DNA of 64,000 nucleotides from Bacteroidetes bacterium GWF2_40_14. GTDB taxonomy: Bacteria > Bacteroidota > Bacteroidia > Bacteroidales > UBA932. A model generated the notes under the pieces. The model saw nothing but the letters and a program-made list of their open reading frames with translations. It did no database searches and was not told where the DNA came from. Each line of letters starts with the position of its first letter. The stretch's first letter is position 1. The stretch lies in the NCBI GenBank assembly GCA_001769195.1, contig MEOK01000032.1:1-64000 (forward strand). The letters run 5' to 3'. The translations under genes were made by a program, and so were the position numbers. Positions 1,012 to 10,427 of this stretch are shown here, piece after piece.

Positions 1012-2022
1012 ATGAAAAGTCCAATTACCGGCAAAGAAATGGTTCTGATTAGAGAGAACAGGACCTTGTCGTTCCGCAAAGAGGAATTCGAAGTTGTTTA
1101 TCATCATTATAAATGTGAAGAAAGTGGAGAGTTCTTCACAACAACAGAACTGGACGAAATTAATCTCAATCAGTTGTATAATCAGTATAGAGCAGAGCAC
1201 AAGCTGCCTTTTCCTGAGGAGATTAAGCAGATAAGGGAAACGTATGATTTGCCAGCATCAAAAATGTCCGAAATACTTGGTTTTGGTGTAAACAGTTATA
1301 GAAATTATGAATCCGGTGAGGTTCCTAATCAGTCCAATGCAAAACTAATTCAGTTGGCTGCCGACCCAAAGGAGTTCAGAAAACTTATCGAACTAAGTGA
1401 TGCTTATCAGGGAAAGGCATTGGATAAAATATTGCATTCTATTGATAGTCTTATACATGAGCAAAAGCAAAGTAAAGGTAAAACTCAAATCGAAAATTAT
1501 CTGATAGGGCTAAAGGCTCCATGTTCAATAACTGGGTTCAAAAGGCCTGATTTTGAAAAATTTACTGAGATGGTAGTATTTTTCACTGCAAAGCAGGAGC
1601 AATGGAAAACAAAACTAAATAAGTTATTATTTTATGCCGACTTCTCTATGTACGCCCAAAGCGGAATGTCTATAAGCGGAGTTCAATACAGGGCAATACC
1701 AAAAGGACCCGTTCCTAAAAATTATCAGGGTTTATTTGAATATCTGGTCAGTAAAGAGGATATTATCATAGAATACGAAACATTCACCAGTGGTAATATG
1801 GGTGAGTTGTTTAAACCAAATCCAAATCGACCTTTCAAATCAGATCTGTTTTCCCAAAAAGAGTTACTCGTTCTTGAGGAAATTTCCCAACGATTCAGCA
1901 AGACAACAACACAGGAAATAGTAGATGCCAGTCATAAAGAAAAGGCCTGGATAGAAAATTCTGAAGGGAATAAGATTATTGATTATAAGTATGGGTTTGA
2001 GTTGAATTATTTGCAATTGTAA
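1012..2022 (+). CDS. HTH (MqsA/XRE-like) protein with C-terminal Panacea/SocA-like (DUF4065) domain; type II antitoxin-like
   Basis: N-terminal HTH region (IRETYDLPASKMSEILGFGVNSYRNYESGEVP) and Panacea-like C-terminus (KLNKLLFYADFSMYAQSGMSISGVQYRAIPKGPVPKNY). Confidence 0.8.
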   Translation: MKSPITGKEMVLIRENRTLSFRKEEFEVVYHHYKCEESGEFFTTTELDEINLNQLYNQYRAEHKLPFPEEIKQIRETYDLPASKMSEILGFGVNSYRNYESGEVPNQSNAKLIQLAADPKEFRKLIELSDAYQGKALDKILHSIDSLIHEQKQSKGKTQIENYLIGLKAPCSITGFKRPDFEKFTEMVVFFTAKQEQWKTKLNKLLFYADFSMYAQSGMSISGVQYRAIPKGPVPKNYQGLFEYLVSKEDIIIEYETFTSGNMGELFKPNPNRPFKSDLFSQKELLVLEEISQRFSKTTTQEIVDASHKEKAWIENSEGNKIIDYKYGFELNYLQL

Positions 2023-2136: not shown

Positions 2137-2874
2137 ATGGATTATTCAGCTTTAGCAAAATCATACAATACATTAGATTATCCTTATAAACTTAGGGAGA
2201 CGCTTAAAGCTTTTTATAAGTCTGATGATTACAACCATTTGACTAAATACGAGTTGATTAAAACAATTAACAAAACCCTTATCAATAATTATGAGGGGGA
2301 GCAGGTTATAAAATATAAACTTGCTAAGGAGTTTATAAAGAAAAATTATGTCGCCGCTTTTGAAGTCAGAGCAAAAAATAGTCGAGCAGATTTTCTTGTA
2401 ATAAACGGTTTTACTCAATCATTTGAGGTTAAGTCTAAAATTGATAATTTGAACCGATTAGGTAAACAAGCTAGTGCTTATGGCGATGTGTTTGAATTTA
2501 ACACAGTTGTTACGGATCCTATACACCTTGATGCGGTAAAAGGCATATTACCTGCACACTATGGAATCTGGTGCTTTGAAGGGAAAAAGAAAATTGTTTA
2601 TCGGGAGGCAAAATTCAGTCCAAATTTATGCTCAAGAGAACAATTATGCCTTTTTAATAAAAAGGAGCTATACTTCCATTTTAATCAAACAGACATAGAA
2701 TTAATAGTGGAAAGATCATCAAAAGAAGAGATAAACGCAAATTTAAAAGCTGCTCTCAAAAAAAGATATAGTGCAAGGTGGACTTTTGTTCAGTCAAATT
2801 GGGGTAGAATATTTCCTATAGATGTTCAATTTTTTTTTAACACAAACATCCGACCGGAGTTGATTTATAGCTGA
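2137..2874 (+). CDS. sce7726 family protein
   Basis: Characteristic segment AAFEVRAKNSRADFLVINGFTQSFEVKSKIDNLNRLGKQASAYGDVFEFNTVV (nuclease-like D...ExK arrangement). Start moved to ATG 2137; the track ORF starts at TTG 2026. Confidence 0.75.
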   Translation: MDYSALAKSYNTLDYPYKLRETLKAFYKSDDYNHLTKYELIKTINKTLINNYEGEQVIKYKLAKEFIKKNYVAAFEVRAKNSRADFLVINGFTQSFEVKSKIDNLNRLGKQASAYGDVFEFNTVVTDPIHLDAVKGILPAHYGIWCFEGKKKIVYREAKFSPNLCSREQLCLFNKKELYFHFNQTDIELIVERSSKEEINANLKAALKKRYSARWTFVQSNWGRIFPIDVQFFFNTNIRPELIYS

Positions 2875-3965
2875 TGTGATAATTGGTCAACTCTTATTTT
2901 TTCACGCATACAATATAGGTAGTGATCCATAGCAATTTTCTTAAATTTTGCCTGGCTCTTACCACTTTCTAAACCATTATTAATGTTTAATAGAGTTATA
3001 TATCCCTGATTGTTCTCTGACAAATAAACAGGAGATGAGTTTAACATCCTTTGAGTGGCCGGAGATGAGAGAACATCTGGAACTATCGTGTTTTTAAATT
3101 CAGATAGATCCTTTTTAATACTAGCTTTAAATCCATAATATTGGTTTTCAACAGCGTCGTAATAAATAAAACCAGGGCTTATAGTTCCTCCCGCTGTCAA
3201 ATCGTCTTTTTTAATCCCCACATAATCACCCGTCACATTTACACCAAATCCTTCAATAATTTCGTTGTCTATTTGGCTATTATCTGCTTCAAAAACAACC
3301 TGAGCATGCTCTAAATTAACATTTTGAATTTCTGTATTTATTGCACTTCTCAATAGGATTTTGCAACAACTAGTGAAGCCTTTTAACACAGCAACAATTG
3401 GACGTAATGGAGGGCTTTTATAATATGGTATTATTTGGTCAAGATCAATTATTATAAAATCATCTTCTCTTACTAACCCTTGAACAACAGGAAAATCAAC
3501 ACTGAAAGTTTGGGGGTATAATCTAAATGCTATCGAGTTGAACTTTGGTCTAATTAAACCTTCCTGTTTCTGAATTGTATTTTCCTCCCCCGTCTTAAGC
3601 AAGTATGATGAAATAACTGGAATTATCTTATGTTTTTGAGAACTTAGATAATTAATGTATTGACAACGCTTTTCGATATTATTAATGACACCTAATGAAA
3701 AGGACACAACTTCGTCTTTCATTGAACCAGATTCTTTAAGATAAACAGGTAGGTCAACAAAAACACGTTTAGCTTTGATGTTTGTAATTAAATCTAAATG
3801 AATATCCTTAAATGATCTTTGGACATCTGATTTACGTGATCGATCATGTTCCTTAATTATTTCTAAAAGTGGATAGATTCTATCCTGGAAATCAAATGAT
3901 CGTAAAACAATATTCTCCTGTTGTCTTACCCTGAATGTGGGCATATAAACCAAGTTAGTTTCCAT
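2865..3965 (-). CDS. beta family protein (Beta_protein/T4 beta-like)
   Basis: N-terminus YMPTFRVRQQENIVLRSFDFQDRIYPLLEIIKEHDR and internal IIIDLDQI resemble the beta family as I recall it. Confidence 0.65.
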   Translation of the reverse strand: METNLVYMPTFRVRQQENIVLRSFDFQDRIYPLLEIIKEHDRSRKSDVQRSFKDIHLDLITNIKAKRVFVDLPVYLKESGSMKDEVVSFSLGVINNIEKRCQYINYLSSQKHKIIPVISSYLLKTGEENTIQKQEGLIRPKFNSIAFRLYPQTFSVDFPVVQGLVREDDFIIIDLDQIIPYYKSPPLRPIVAVLKGFTSCCKILLRSAINTEIQNVNLEHAQVVFEADNSQIDNEIIEGFGVNVTGDYVGIKKDDLTAGGTISPGFIYYDAVENQYYGFKASIKKDLSEFKNTIVPDVLSSPATQRMLNSSPVYLSENNQGYITLLNINNGLESGKSQAKFKKIAMDHYLYCMREKIRVDQLSHQL

Positions 3966-4803
3966 ATGAAATCTTTAATTGTTGAATACTTGTAATGAAC
4001 TCGTCTGTCGCCTCAAAATTCTCATCTAAGAAAGCCAGGGTTTCTGTATATGTATCTATGAAGGCATTGAATTCCTTGGCTAACCATTGGTATTTTGAAT
4101 AAATTCTCTCGCTTTCAGCATTCTTTAGTAAGTTTTCTTTAATGTTCGTATAGTAGCTTTCAAAGAATTCTTCTTTATTTTCTACTTTGAAAATATGATT
4201 GAAAACATTGAGATACTTCACTTCGCAACTTTTTTTTATTAGCGAATCTATTAATATCGAATAGTAAGGGCCATCATTATCAATAGAGTAAACCTTAAAT
4301 TGTTTTACAAAGTTATTTGAAAGTACAATTCTTGGAAAAACAGACTGACTAGTTTCAATCTTATACGCTTCGGCTAAAGGTGTACCTAGGGCTATTGATG
4401 ACTTATCAATAAATAATCCATAATCAATCCCTCCCCTTAGAAAATAGCCCTTCTGAACAAATTCAAAATAAAGTTCAGAGATTACAAGCAATAATTCTAA
4501 AAGTGATTTTTCTTTACTTGAATTAATATTGTTCGCGGTAATACAAATATTGTCACTAAAAAGGTAGTAACTAAATTTATCTGGGTTTAACTTTGAGATA
4601 GCAGAATTAAAAGTCTCAATAAAGTCATTTGCCATACGAGAATAATAAAACGAGTTCCCATTATCTTCAGATTGTTCGTCAATGTGGGAGTCCTTAAAAT
4701 TTACAGCTTCACGCTCAAATTCCAAAAGTTTAGATTGAAACCCTAAAACATCTAAGAACGCTACAGCTCTTTCTCCATAAATGTATTCGTAATCATTCGT
4801 CAT
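3955..4803 (-). CDS. Minimal class III nucleotide-cyclase-like protein
   Basis: Motifs in order: VAFLDVLGF, YYLFSDNICIT, YFLRGGIDYG, GTPLAEAYKIETSQS. ATG 4803 preferred over 4836. Confidence 0.65.
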   Translation of the reverse strand: MTNDYEYIYGERAVAFLDVLGFQSKLLEFEREAVNFKDSHIDEQSEDNGNSFYYSRMANDFIETFNSAISKLNPDKFSYYLFSDNICITANNINSSKEKSLLELLLVISELYFEFVQKGYFLRGGIDYGLFIDKSSIALGTPLAEAYKIETSQSVFPRIVLSNNFVKQFKVYSIDNDGPYYSILIDSLIKKSCEVKYLNVFNHIFKVENKEEFFESYYTNIKENLLKNAESERIYSKYQWLAKEFNAFIDTYTETLAFLDENFEATDEFITSIQQLKISYGN

Positions 4804-4951
4804 AAACACTTTCTTCCTCAAACTGTTACACCGCATAAAGATATAAATTTAATACGAAACAGGAAAGATATTATCTGATTTATATTCCAAATGTTTTTTG
4901 TTTACGATTATTCAATGGATGTTATCAAATCCAAACACAATAATGTTGGTA

Positions 4952-6052
4952 CTATGTTTTCCCTGACAAATCTACTGGTACCAGAAACCTTTTCCCGACG
5001 TTGTATTTGATGAGTTTTTTATGCTGTAGTCTTCCGACTATCATTGCGGGATGGGTATTTATTTGATTTGCATATTCCAGAATATCAGGCTCTGTCAGTA
5101 TCCCTTTTGCCAGTAACTGCTTCTCTTCCGAGATCGAGAATGTCCATTTTACAGCAAAATTATCGGCTTCCTGCTCTTTGTCGGGACTCACTTCACAATT
5201 CTCTACATTTTCCAGAAATACATCCTTCTTTCCATGCAGTAAAATGTGACCTATCTCATGGAAAAATGTGAACCAAAAGCTGTCGTTCCTTTTGTATCTA
5301 CCCGATATCTGGATTACCGGATTATTATTAATCCATCGGGTTGCGCCACTTACTGGAGCATGTGGCAGGCATGGCGTAAATATGATTTTAACCCCTACTT
5401 TCAGACATACAGCTTGCAGCTTTACAAAAAAATCATCCGGATGTTTTGCCATTAACAGTTTAAGTTCCGGAAGTATGGCTCTCAATCCTGCTTCCGAATA
5501 ACAATTGCTCTCCATTTTGGCAGCAGCTACTTCACCATGACGCAACCATGCAGAAATCGAATGAGGCTGTTGGGTATTTTTTAAAGAAATTCTGAAAGCT
5601 GTTTTTAACTCCTGATTCAGATAGTAGTCCTCCCATGCCTTATGATTACTTATACAAAAAAATGACAACAACTCCTTAGTCTTTTCCTCCCAATCCTGCT
5701 TTTCTGAAATCCAGCCAAGCTTAACCATCTCCTTAATGGGAAATAATTTAGCCCAGACAATAGAGTTTCCTACTAACCTGTTATTTTCTAGTCTGGCAAG
5801 ATATTCATCGAACTCACTCTGCTGTTTCAGCCAAAAATGAGCAGGAATTTTAAGAACATGCTCAAATTTAACCGCCATTTCCGGCGTGATAGAGCTTTTC
5901 GCAGACAATACCGCAATGATGGTTTTCTCCGGCTTGTTTGTCCTGACAGAAAACTCCTTTGGCCCCATACCCAATTCTTCCAGCTTCTCAGCCAGAGTCT
6001 CACCCGGATGAAATTGAATCTGAGGAAGGTATTGATTTGATTTTGTTGCCAT
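4952..6052 (-). CDS. higA: HigA-family antitoxin fused to ImmA/IrrE-type metallopeptidase
   Basis: HigA-like start (FHPGETLAEKLEELGMGPKEFSVRTNKPEKTI) and HEIGH zinc motif (FWFTFFHEIGHILLHGKKDVFLE). Confidence 0.9.
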   Translation of the reverse strand: MATKSNQYLPQIQFHPGETLAEKLEELGMGPKEFSVRTNKPEKTIIAVLSAKSSITPEMAVKFEHVLKIPAHFWLKQQSEFDEYLARLENNRLVGNSIVWAKLFPIKEMVKLGWISEKQDWEEKTKELLSFFCISNHKAWEDYYLNQELKTAFRISLKNTQQPHSISAWLRHGEVAAAKMESNCYSEAGLRAILPELKLLMAKHPDDFFVKLQAVCLKVGVKIIFTPCLPHAPVSGATRWINNNPVIQISGRYKRNDSFWFTFFHEIGHILLHGKKDVFLENVENCEVSPDKEQEADNFAVKWTFSISEEKQLLAKGILTEPDILEYANQINTHPAMIVGRLQHKKLIKYNVGKRFLVPVDLSGKT

Positions 6053-6063
6053 GGTTCTGTTTG

Positions 6064-6399
6064 TTATTTATGATAATCTGTTATTTCTATTATTTCTATT
6101 CCTTTGATCTCACACCAGATGCAAATTCCATTTGCATCTTCGGGGACAGGATCTTCATGAGGCTCAAATATAAGGCGATACGGCTGCTCAAGATCGCATG
6201 CCCATTGTCCTTTTCTATTTTCAGTAAGTTCATGAAAGTGTCCCGGTAAATTTCTGACATCCTCTAACGTAACAGCTAATCGCAATGCCTCTAACCGTAT
6301 TTGAAAACGTTTAGCACAAGTTGTTCCCAGCTCTTTATGACATTTTGCGGGGTTATTTGCTATTCGCTCGAGCTTATTAGTTCTAAACGTAATATTCAC
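6064..6399 (-). CDS. higB: HigB/RelE-ParE-type toxin
   Basis: 111 aa; LRLAVTLEDVRNLPGHFHELTENRKGQWACDLEQPYRLIFEP; immediately upstream of the HigA-like gene. Confidence 0.85.
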   Translation of the reverse strand: MNITFRTNKLERIANNPAKCHKELGTTCAKRFQIRLEALRLAVTLEDVRNLPGHFHELTENRKGQWACDLEQPYRLIFEPHEDPVPEDANGICIWCEIKGIEIIEITDYHK

Positions 6400-6567: not shown

Positions 6568-8547
6568 CTATATTATCGGCATTCCAACTTTCTTCAAATA
6601 TTCAAATGTTGTATTATAAAACTCTGGTTTTCTTGTGTGGTCTTCCGGATTTCCTTCTGGAATTACAATAACCATTCCTTGTCTTGCTCGTGTAAGTAGT
6701 ACGCGGTAGGCATTTATGAGATATTTTTTTCGTTCGACGCTATTTATATTTTGCCATTTGTTGCCTTTGAATGAGAATGTCTTCCAACCATTTTCAGAGT
6801 ATCGTAAATCACCATCCCACGTAACACAGGCCCAATCGAGTTCAAGTCCCTGTACATGAAATTCTGTGGCAACATCTTCAAGAAAATATGAAGAACGAAC
6901 ATCATCACGATCTTCAAGGAACCAATGTACAGGATCCATTGGAGACTTAACATTTATTGCAAGTGGCTTTAGTCGTTCTGCTTGGGAAGATACAACAATA
7001 CCATATCGCTCACTTCCTCTAGCCTTCTCTTTTAACCACACTTTCGCTTTTGACAAATCTCGAGTAAGTACTATCGGATAGTTATCAGAAATTTGCATCA
7101 ACACTTCATGAGCTTTCTCCAAATCTAAATCAAGTAAGCGTTTTACAAAAAGAGATAGATTCTCTGCTCTGAAGGATCGCATAGAGACAGCGAGATGAAG
7201 GTCATCATTATAGTTGACTTTGTTTTTTATTTCAAGAGTTTTAATTGCCTCAACAGCACTATATTCTGAGTCTGTCAAATTCGGTGAAATATAAACTTCC
7301 CATTGTTCAAAAAGGTGTTCAATAGCTGTCAGCCACTCTGAAATACCAGCCTCTCCCGTATTTATTTCCTGCCCTCCCCCTACTAAACAAATAACCACAG
7401 CCCAATCTTTATGTCTATCCAAGCATGAAATTAGAAATTCAGGTTCAGAATGATCAAAGTTGGGCTGACCCTTTTTCATCCTCATGAACTTTACGGTTTG
7501 CTCTTTATTCCATGCTCTCTGAGCTTCATCAAAAATTGCCACATGGTCATATGGTGCTTCCTTATTAACTAAGTATGCATCCCGATAATGGTGAATAATT
7601 TGTATAAAAGACTTAACCGCTTGTCTTGCTGATTGTTTAGAAACCTTATTTCCCAAATCTGCTTCGCGCCTTACTTTATCCCTTGATAGGGCTTCTTGTA
7701 AAATGGCAACCAAAGGAGCATTCCCAGAAAGATATACGCTAGCATGACCCTTATCATTATCGAGATGAGAAGTTGCTACTTTTAGCCCGACAAGTGTTTT
7801 TCCAGCACCCGGCACTCCTGTTACAAAGCATATTACCTTCTTCCGTTCCGACTTGGCGTATTCTATAATGTCAGAAATAGCATTTGTTGTTTTTGTTAAG
7901 TTGATCGCTCCCGCATCACTTCGTGTGATTTCTTCTACGCTGTGATTATTGTATAAAGAGATTGCAGCTTCTATTATTGTTGGTGTTGGAGAGTAACTCC
8001 CATTAGCATACGATTCTCCGAGTATGTATTTATTTGACAAACAATAAAAATCGAGTGTTTTATTAATTATTGTAGCTAAGCCAAATTTGTTTGTCTTAAT
8101 TGGCAATAAAAGGTTGTCATTATGAGATGTCGTTGAAATTATTTCATATGAATGCCTTGCTTCTGTAGCGACTAAAACAGGGACAATCAATGCAGAATGG
8201 CTTGGTTTATGAAAATTCTTTAGATCGAGCGCATAATCCCATACCTGCTCAATATTTGCTGAAGAAAATGATGTTTCACCGACTTTAAATTCTATAACAA
8301 ATACTACATCATTTATAATTACAATAGAATCAACCCTCTTCCCCATTCTTGGTATAGAAAATTCAAAGAAAATGGAACCAGAATGACCTTCAAGTGCTCC
8401 TTTGAGAATTGGAATTTGCTGCTCCCAGGACTTATTTTGCAATAAAGTTGAATCGAATTGATTAGCAATTGTAATTGCTCCGATTATTTCATCTGTGTTT
8501 TTTTGTAGGAACGACTCAATGGAAGATTGGTAGTAATAGTTATTCAT
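6568..8547 (-). CDS. DUF2075 (Schlafen group 3-like) DNA/RNA helicase with N-terminal PD-(D/E)XK-like nuclease region
   Basis: Walker A VTGVPGAGKTLVGL, AIFDEAQRAW, C-terminal NAYRVLLTRARQGMVIVIP; N-terminal GKRVDSIVIINDVVFVIEFKVGE. Confidence 0.9.
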   Translation of the reverse strand: MNNYYYQSSIESFLQKNTDEIIGAITIANQFDSTLLQNKSWEQQIPILKGALEGHSGSIFFEFSIPRMGKRVDSIVIINDVVFVIEFKVGETSFSSANIEQVWDYALDLKNFHKPSHSALIVPVLVATEARHSYEIISTTSHNDNLLLPIKTNKFGLATIINKTLDFYCLSNKYILGESYANGSYSPTPTIIEAAISLYNNHSVEEITRSDAGAINLTKTTNAISDIIEYAKSERKKVICFVTGVPGAGKTLVGLKVATSHLDNDKGHASVYLSGNAPLVAILQEALSRDKVRREADLGNKVSKQSARQAVKSFIQIIHHYRDAYLVNKEAPYDHVAIFDEAQRAWNKEQTVKFMRMKKGQPNFDHSEPEFLISCLDRHKDWAVVICLVGGGQEINTGEAGISEWLTAIEHLFEQWEVYISPNLTDSEYSAVEAIKTLEIKNKVNYNDDLHLAVSMRSFRAENLSLFVKRLLDLDLEKAHEVLMQISDNYPIVLTRDLSKAKVWLKEKARGSERYGIVVSSQAERLKPLAINVKSPMDPVHWFLEDRDDVRSSYFLEDVATEFHVQGLELDWACVTWDGDLRYSENGWKTFSFKGNKWQNINSVERKKYLINAYRVLLTRARQGMVIVIPEGNPEDHTRKPEFYNTTFEYLKKVGMPII

Positions 8548-9614: not shown

Positions 9615-10427
9615 TTAACGATGCAGGTGAATTTTAGTGAATTGCGCCTCTCTGTTTTTGTAATGAGTTATGTAGCGGAAGCCGCAGCTTCTGATTACCT
9701 CTGTGAAATGGTCGAACTTCTCGCCTATTCGTTCGGGGTCGTGGGCATCGGATCCGAGGGAGATTGCTTCGCCACCCAACTCTTTGTATCGTTTTAACAC
9801 GGCGGTGTCGAGTACGGGGATTGTTCCGTTTTTCTTTCTGTAAGTGTTTGTGTTTATCTCCAGGGCTTTCCCATTTTGTATAAGGAACCTGAATATCTGG
9901 TCGAGTATGTCTCCGAACTTAGAGTGGTGTATGATTCTCTCAGTAAACGGGGCGTATCGGGTTATATAGTCGTAGTGGCCAAGAATGTCGAAATCTGTGT
10001 ACTCTTGAATGCACAGATAGATTGTCTCTAGGTATCTTCCGTAGGCGGTGTCCTGATCCTTGCCTACATAGTATTCGCCATAGTACGGGTCAATGCCGTC
10101 TACAAAGTGCACCGACGCAATTATCTGGTCGAACTTGTGTCTTGCGACAAATGATTTGACCTCGGCCATTGTATGCAGCTGCATTCCTACCTCTATCCCT
10201 TTGAGTACCTCAATAGGGTGTAAGGAGTTAAGTAATTCTACCTTTTTCTGTTGTTCAAGAGGGTCGAACAGAAAGCTGTCGTCGCCCTTTGGAGCCCTTA
10301 TATCGAGGTGATCGGTAATTATAACACCGCCCAGACCGGCTGCAATAGCCTGACTGACCGCCTGTTCCATTCGCATTCTGGAATCGGGCGAAAATTCGCT
10401 GTGGGTATGTGAGTCTGTAAGTTTCAA
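9615..10427 (-). CDS. PHP-domain histidinol-phosphatase (HisJ family)
   Basis: MKLTDSHTHSEFSPDS, ITDHLDI, SLGSDAHDPERIG motifs. Confidence 0.85.
   Translation of the reverse strand: MKLTDSHTHSEFSPDSRMRMEQAVSQAIAAGLGGVIITDHLDIRAPKGDDSFLFDPLEQQKKVELLNSLHPIEVLKGIEVGMQLHTMAEVKSFVARHKFDQIIASVHFVDGIDPYYGEYYVGKDQDTAYGRYLETIYLCIQEYTDFDILGHYDYITRYAPFTERIIHHSKFGDILDQIFRFLIQNGKALEINTNTYRKKNGTIPVLDTAVLKRYKELGGEAISLGSDAHDPERIGEKFDHFTEVIRSCGFRYITHYKNREAQFTKIHLHR

Follow-up and report, generated by a model that had tools for sequence, protein, structure and literature searches.

A gop-beta-cII-like gene unit of Bacteroidota with a class III cyclase-fold protein in the toxin slot

The window, a stretch of 64,000 nucleotides from Bacteroidetes bacterium GWF2_40_14, contains a three-gene unit that reproduces the layout of the gop-beta-cII system of satellite phage P4, with a predicted class III nucleotide-cyclase-fold protein (282 residues, 3955..4803, minus strand) in the slot occupied by gop. 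The gene that follows on the same strand encodes a Beta family protein (366 residues, 2865..3965), a relative of P4 beta, of the C component of PD-Lambda-2 and of sce7725, and it runs tail to tail into a gene of the sce7726/P4-cII family (2137..2874, plus strand). This arrangement suggests an unrecognised version of gop-beta-cII defence, and the reading that the unit is an anti-phage module of the gop-beta-cII type in which the cyclase-fold protein has replaced gop is assigned a probability of about 60%. The initial annotation had proposed a signalling or defence pair comprising the cyclase-like and Beta genes. The coupled pair stands and lies in a defence-island setting, whereas the unit as then drawn was incomplete, lacking the convergent third gene at 2137-2874.

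The cyclase-fold protein is encoded by an open reading frame at 3955-4836 (minus strand), for which the ATG at 4803 was adopted in the initial annotation and an alternative ATG lies at 4836. Its product contains the class III motifs originally quoted, FLDVLGF, FSDNICIT, LRGGIDYG and GTPLAEAYKIE, and these are not fortuitous: in an alignment of 50 relatives, Asp18, Asp84, Arg123 and Gly124 are invariant (50/50), with further conservation at Arg158 (48/50), Lys237 (49/50), Trp240 (48/50) and Glu150 (47/50). Asp18 and Asp84 are the metal aspartates as assigned by motif alignment. An AlphaFold model based on the same 50-member alignment has a pLDDT of 90.1 and a pTM of 0.87, and class III cyclases, whether adenylyl, guanylyl or cytidylate, account for every one of the best 49 PDB structure matches to this model (best E-value 2.8e-5; TM-score, normalised by target, up to 0.61). 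On the strength of this model, the fold is that of a class III nucleotide cyclase. Hhalign of the family against PF00211 domains of the same phylum aligned the four motifs collinearly at an E-value of 0.0032 with a probability of only 9.9, and therefore the structure search was relied upon instead. One of the 50 family members reaches PF00211 with an E-value of 0.005, and the window protein itself has no match in Pfam, NCBIfam or PADLOC at E-values up to 1. The PDB was also searched by sequence, both with the window protein by itself and with a profile of the 50 members; neither gave a meaningful match, and the best hits of the profile were short stretches in designed repeat proteins. The protein does match one PHROG, phrog_23933 (function unknown), at 2.5e-21.

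The replacement of the canonical transition-state Asn and Arg by Ala and Lys, at positions 144 and 148, characterises the family as a whole and is not peculiar to the window protein. The Asn column of the 50-member alignment holds Val, Ile, Ala, Thr or Asn and the Arg column Glu, Lys, Leu or Thr, whereas in canonical PF00211 cyclases of the same phylum the Asn site is nearly invariant and the Arg site invariant. Because both residues are unconserved throughout the family, classical cyclase activity is doubtful. Judged by this contrast with the canonical set, either other residues would perform the chemistry or nucleotides would be bound without cyclisation. The latter option leads to a tentative yet appreciable alternative, in which a catalytically inactive, nucleotide-binding cyclase-like protein controls Beta and the putative nuclease through protein contact; apart from the family-wide loss of Asn and Arg, it is favoured by the overlap of the cyclase and Beta genes, which suggests stoichiometric co-synthesis. 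Against it, the metal aspartates together with Arg12, Arg123, Glu150, Arg158 and Lys237 hardly vary even among very divergent relatives, which suggests that some chemistry has been retained.

The identification of the second gene product as a beta-family protein agrees with its match to Pfam PF14350 (Beta_protein, E-value 1.3e-16). Its predicted model is of moderate quality (pLDDT 75) and weakly resembles a TIM barrel, with structure matches at E-values of about 2e-3. Compared with viral predicted structures, the model gave weak TIM-barrel-type matches alone, none of them named P4 beta. The protein has no match to the PADLOC beta model, and PADLOC PD-Lambda-2_C models match members of the Beta_protein family at other loci. 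A search of phage and plasmid records with the window Beta yielded none, and a scan of viral contigs using the Beta alignment did not find true relatives. The product of the convergent gene at 2137-2874 belongs to the sce7726 family (NCBIfam NF033832, 1.7e-27) and matches the PADLOC 'cll' model at 8.8e-15. In an alignment of P4 cII, sce7726 and window proteins, Asp85, Glu97-x-Lys99 and Gln111 (window numbering) are invariant. RecB, Cas4 and other PD-(D/E)XK nucleases are recognised by this D ... ExK ... Q pattern, which makes the protein a putative PD-(D/E)XK-type nuclease.

The three genes form a conserved unit. Relatives of the cyclase-like protein were collected by scanning 85,462 species, one genome each; because the scan relied on a single peptide pattern, built around FxDxLGF, it may have overlooked more distant copies. 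The scan returned 11 close relatives with 43-68% identity, separated by a gap from the remainder, which have at most 33% identity with the exception of one short segment. In all 11 close relatives Beta comes after the cyclase gene, and a convergent sce7726 gene runs tail to tail into Beta; neither Beta nor sce7726 occurs at any of the 69 more distant cyclase-family loci of the same scan. Counting near-identical records once and including the window, there are 11 distinct three-gene copies. The 11-nt overlap between the cyclase stop and the Beta start (3955..3965), which had already been reported, recurs exactly in eight of nine intact relatives, the ninth having a 2-nt gap. The tail-to-tail overlap of Beta and sce7726 (10 nt in the window, 2865..2874) measures 4-17 nt in all copies. 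In the reciprocal search, which started from Beta and covered 396 genomes of the phylum, members of its subfamily were present in exactly two, the window genome and G482, both of which carry the cyclase gene.

The paired cyclases have also evolved together with their partners. Full-length paired cyclases form one clade (n = 9, support 100/100), the protein distances of the three genes correlate with one another (r 0.96, 0.90 and 0.92; Mantel p ≤ 2e-4), and dN is far below dS for all three genes in close pairs. Near-identical three-gene copies occur in Marinifilaceae and Flavobacteriaceae along with a near-identical HsdR. The three genes are thus co-inherited, under purifying selection and horizontally spread between Bacteroidota families. 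These data bear on the proposal that the Beta/sce7726 pair alone is functional and the cyclase-like gene is merely carried along. In its favour, the first slot of some Beta/sce7726 pairs is empty of annotated genes. In one copy (L070/L165, the latter in genome G482; L070 positions 6977-7866), moreover, an in-frame TAA interrupts the cyclase gene some 180 codons from its start, with both partner genes remaining open; this copy may be able to do without the cyclase, or the metagenome-assembled genome may contain an error. Yet elsewhere the cyclase gene is retained under purifying selection with its conserved 11-nt overlap, and over at least five Bacteroidota families its divergence parallels that of Beta (r 0.96), which makes such a passenger role highly improbable.

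The closest validated system is gop-beta-cII of P4. There, gop (133 residues) precedes beta (355 residues), followed by the convergent cII (264 residues); in RefSeq the latter two carry the names 'beta family protein' (beta) and 'sce7726 family protein' (cII), and the PADLOC gop, beta and cll models match the P4 proteins. The system protects E. coli from lambda and P1 (Rousset et al. 2022, PMC9122126), and the same study cites the toxicity of gop without beta. Both loci thus contain a Beta gene, a tail-to-tail convergent sce7726/cII gene and one small gene directly upstream of beta on the same strand. They differ in that the slot holds the 133-residue gop in P4 and the 282-residue class III cyclase-fold protein in the window, and the P4 Beta and cII proteins are only remotely similar to their window counterparts, with alignment identities of about 20% in each case. 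Since the window gene upstream of Beta has no PADLOC gop match and encodes a cyclase-fold protein, the unit is regarded as a variant of gop-beta-cII and not as a member. The P4 gop sequence has two hydrophobic N-terminal segments; gop and the cyclase-like protein have no visible similarity, and an equal position need not mean an equal role.

Other Beta/sce7726 loci carry different genes in the first slot: HTH and ImmA/IrrE genes at three loci (L163, L164 and L200), and a small gene with an XRE regulator at two (L195 and L197). In the Rac-SA53 prophage, an E. coli plasmid and Rhodococcus plasmids there is no annotated same-strand gene upstream. The shared core is thus Beta with convergent sce7726; what occupies the first slot can be exchanged. 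A core of this kind, one version of which includes a cyclase-fold protein, offers a test of Beta as a general regulator and links the Beta/cII family to nucleotide-based defence. The sce7726-sce7725 pairs (NF033832/NF033831) share with the window the nuclease-like family and a Beta-related partner; unlike the window genes, theirs are co-directional, lack a cyclase and are followed by a HEPN/RES-like gene. This third arrangement was seen at L144, L145 and L146, where sce7726 and a co-directional sce7725 are accompanied by a small Cys-rich gene that weakly matches HEPN/RES.

The resemblance to Pycsar that was proposed initially did not hold up. The unit shares with Pycsar a class III cyclase fold, both metal aspartates, a partner gene and a location in defence islands. 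Whereas Pycsar has a PycTM or PycTIR effector, the unit has no TM, TIR or cyclic-nucleotide-binding effector; the absence of a TM or TIR segment from the partner had been noted correctly, and Beta is instead weakly TIM-barrel-like. The canonical Asn and Arg are missing, and the partners are Beta and a convergent nuclease-like gene. Membership of Pycsar was rejected on these grounds, there being neither a PycTM/PycTIR-type effector nor the catalytic Asn/Arg. A related mode of action, in which infection prompts an active cyclase to make a cyclic mononucleotide, with Beta or the sce7726 nuclease as receptor or effector, is a separate matter. The fold argues for it, as the Elizabethkingia cytidylate cyclase 8jsf is among the structure matches of the model (E-value 6e-4) and the cytidylate-cyclase PycC of this kind has been described from Pycsar (PMC11224242). 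The invariance of both metal aspartates and the defence-island setting point the same way. This mode of action is nevertheless rather doubtful: Asn and Arg, near-invariant in canonical cyclases, are missing family-wide, no TM or TIR effector is present, most cyclase relatives have no constant partner able to serve as receptor, and in PADLOC the window protein has no match at E ≤ 1 and the 50 relatives only two, both marginal and non-Pycsar.

We infer a defence role for the unit because Beta and sce7726 are homologous to proteins of validated systems. Under the preferred reading of a gop-beta-cII-type module, translational coupling would ensure co-production of the cyclase-like protein with Beta, which would serve as regulator or brake. 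Infection would disturb the cell and thereby activate the cyclase-like protein, which may either sense nucleotides or act on them, in the latter case as a toxin or as a maker of signals. Its activation would render the sce7726 PD-(D/E)XK nuclease active, probably via Beta, and this putative effector would bring about an abortive response. The division of labour and the order of events are proposals; the 2022 papers apart, a limited literature search found no mechanism for Beta, sce7726 or gop-beta-cII. In a bolder, unlikely version, a class III enzyme that has diverged to the point of lacking the usual Asn and Arg would rely on other invariant residues to make a nucleotide signal on infection, which Beta reads and which switches on the sce7726 nuclease. 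If true, this would constitute nucleotide-signalling defence with a new class of receptor and effector, and gop-beta-cII systems would be explained as a modular platform with exchangeable triggers.

The module resides in low-GC defence islands, often after restriction-modification genes. In the window its GC content is 32% as compared with 45-48% beyond 10 kb, and restriction-type genes, mostly of type I or III, immediately precede six other copies. The window copy is flanked on one side by an MqsA/Panacea antitoxin-like gene and on the other by HigB and HigA-IrrE genes and then a helicase. Position 1 of the window is the contig end, on the left side of the island. The helicase gene (6568-8547, minus strand) encodes a Schlafen group 3/DUF2075-like protein that matches PADLOC PDC-S41 over its whole length (1.9e-288) and is a further candidate defence gene of the island. 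Directly upstream of sce7726, an MqsA-type HTH is fused to a SocA/Panacea antitoxin domain (1012-2022, plus strand). In L070, too, sce7726 is preceded by a Panacea gene (9805-10359), and these two copies raise the question of whether Panacea restrains the nuclease.

The HigB-like toxin gene (6064-6399, minus strand) and the HigA-ImmA/IrrE gene (4952-6052, minus strand; PD-Lambda-2_B model, 7.8e-34) together occupy 4952..6399 on the strand of the cyclase gene, 115 nt upstream of its open reading frame. As described by Vassallo et al. 2022 (PMC9519451), PD-lambda-2 combines a HigB-like protein and a HigA-peptidase fusion with a third component, which is related to a P4 phage antitoxin and required for defence. 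The succession of HigB, HigA-ImmA/IrrE, cyclase and Beta in the window resembles PD-lambda-2 with a cyclase inserted: a Beta relative is the last gene and HigB and HigA-IrrE genes lie directly upstream on the same strand, whereas the cyclase-like gene intervenes and both HigB and HigA-IrrE are absent from the other module copies. A merged PD-lambda-2-like operon is possible in the window and is not general, because HigB-HigA/IrrE adjoins the window copy only. For the same reason these genes were rejected as a general part of the module; they are possibly linked to it functionally in the window genome only.

These flanking genes also bear on the suggestion that the unit is a toxin-antitoxin or selfish stabilisation module of mobile islands, defence being incidental or absent. 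The window copy stands between HigB-HigA/IrrE and MqsA-Panacea genes, P4 gop-beta acts as a toxin-antitoxin pair (PMC9122126), and sce7726 could be toxic by itself. The same Beta/cII core is, on the other hand, validated as anti-phage in P4 (PMC9122126) and PD-lambda-2 defence requires the Beta relative (PMC9519451), so a purely selfish role is unlikely; moreover, toxin-antitoxin function and abortive defence are not mutually exclusive.

Beyond the module, the cyclase-like protein belongs to a widespread, unnamed family of cyclase-fold proteins without a Pfam family of its own, found in prophages and restriction islands. Among the loci examined, this wider family has no constant partner. The members of phrog_23933 are phage-borne representatives of the same family; unlike the window, the viral loci examined contained no Beta or sce7726 genes. 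In three viral contigs (L017, L018 and L027) a distant family gene begins 0-8 nt after a neighbouring gene or overlaps it, and the product of this neighbour begins like a ParA-type ATPase (KIITLYNHKGGVSKTTTT), the two forming a recurrent prophage pair. At three further loci (L022, L073 and L134), as judged by eye, distant members apparently sit inside type I restriction operons, with specificity- and methylase-like genes as their neighbours.
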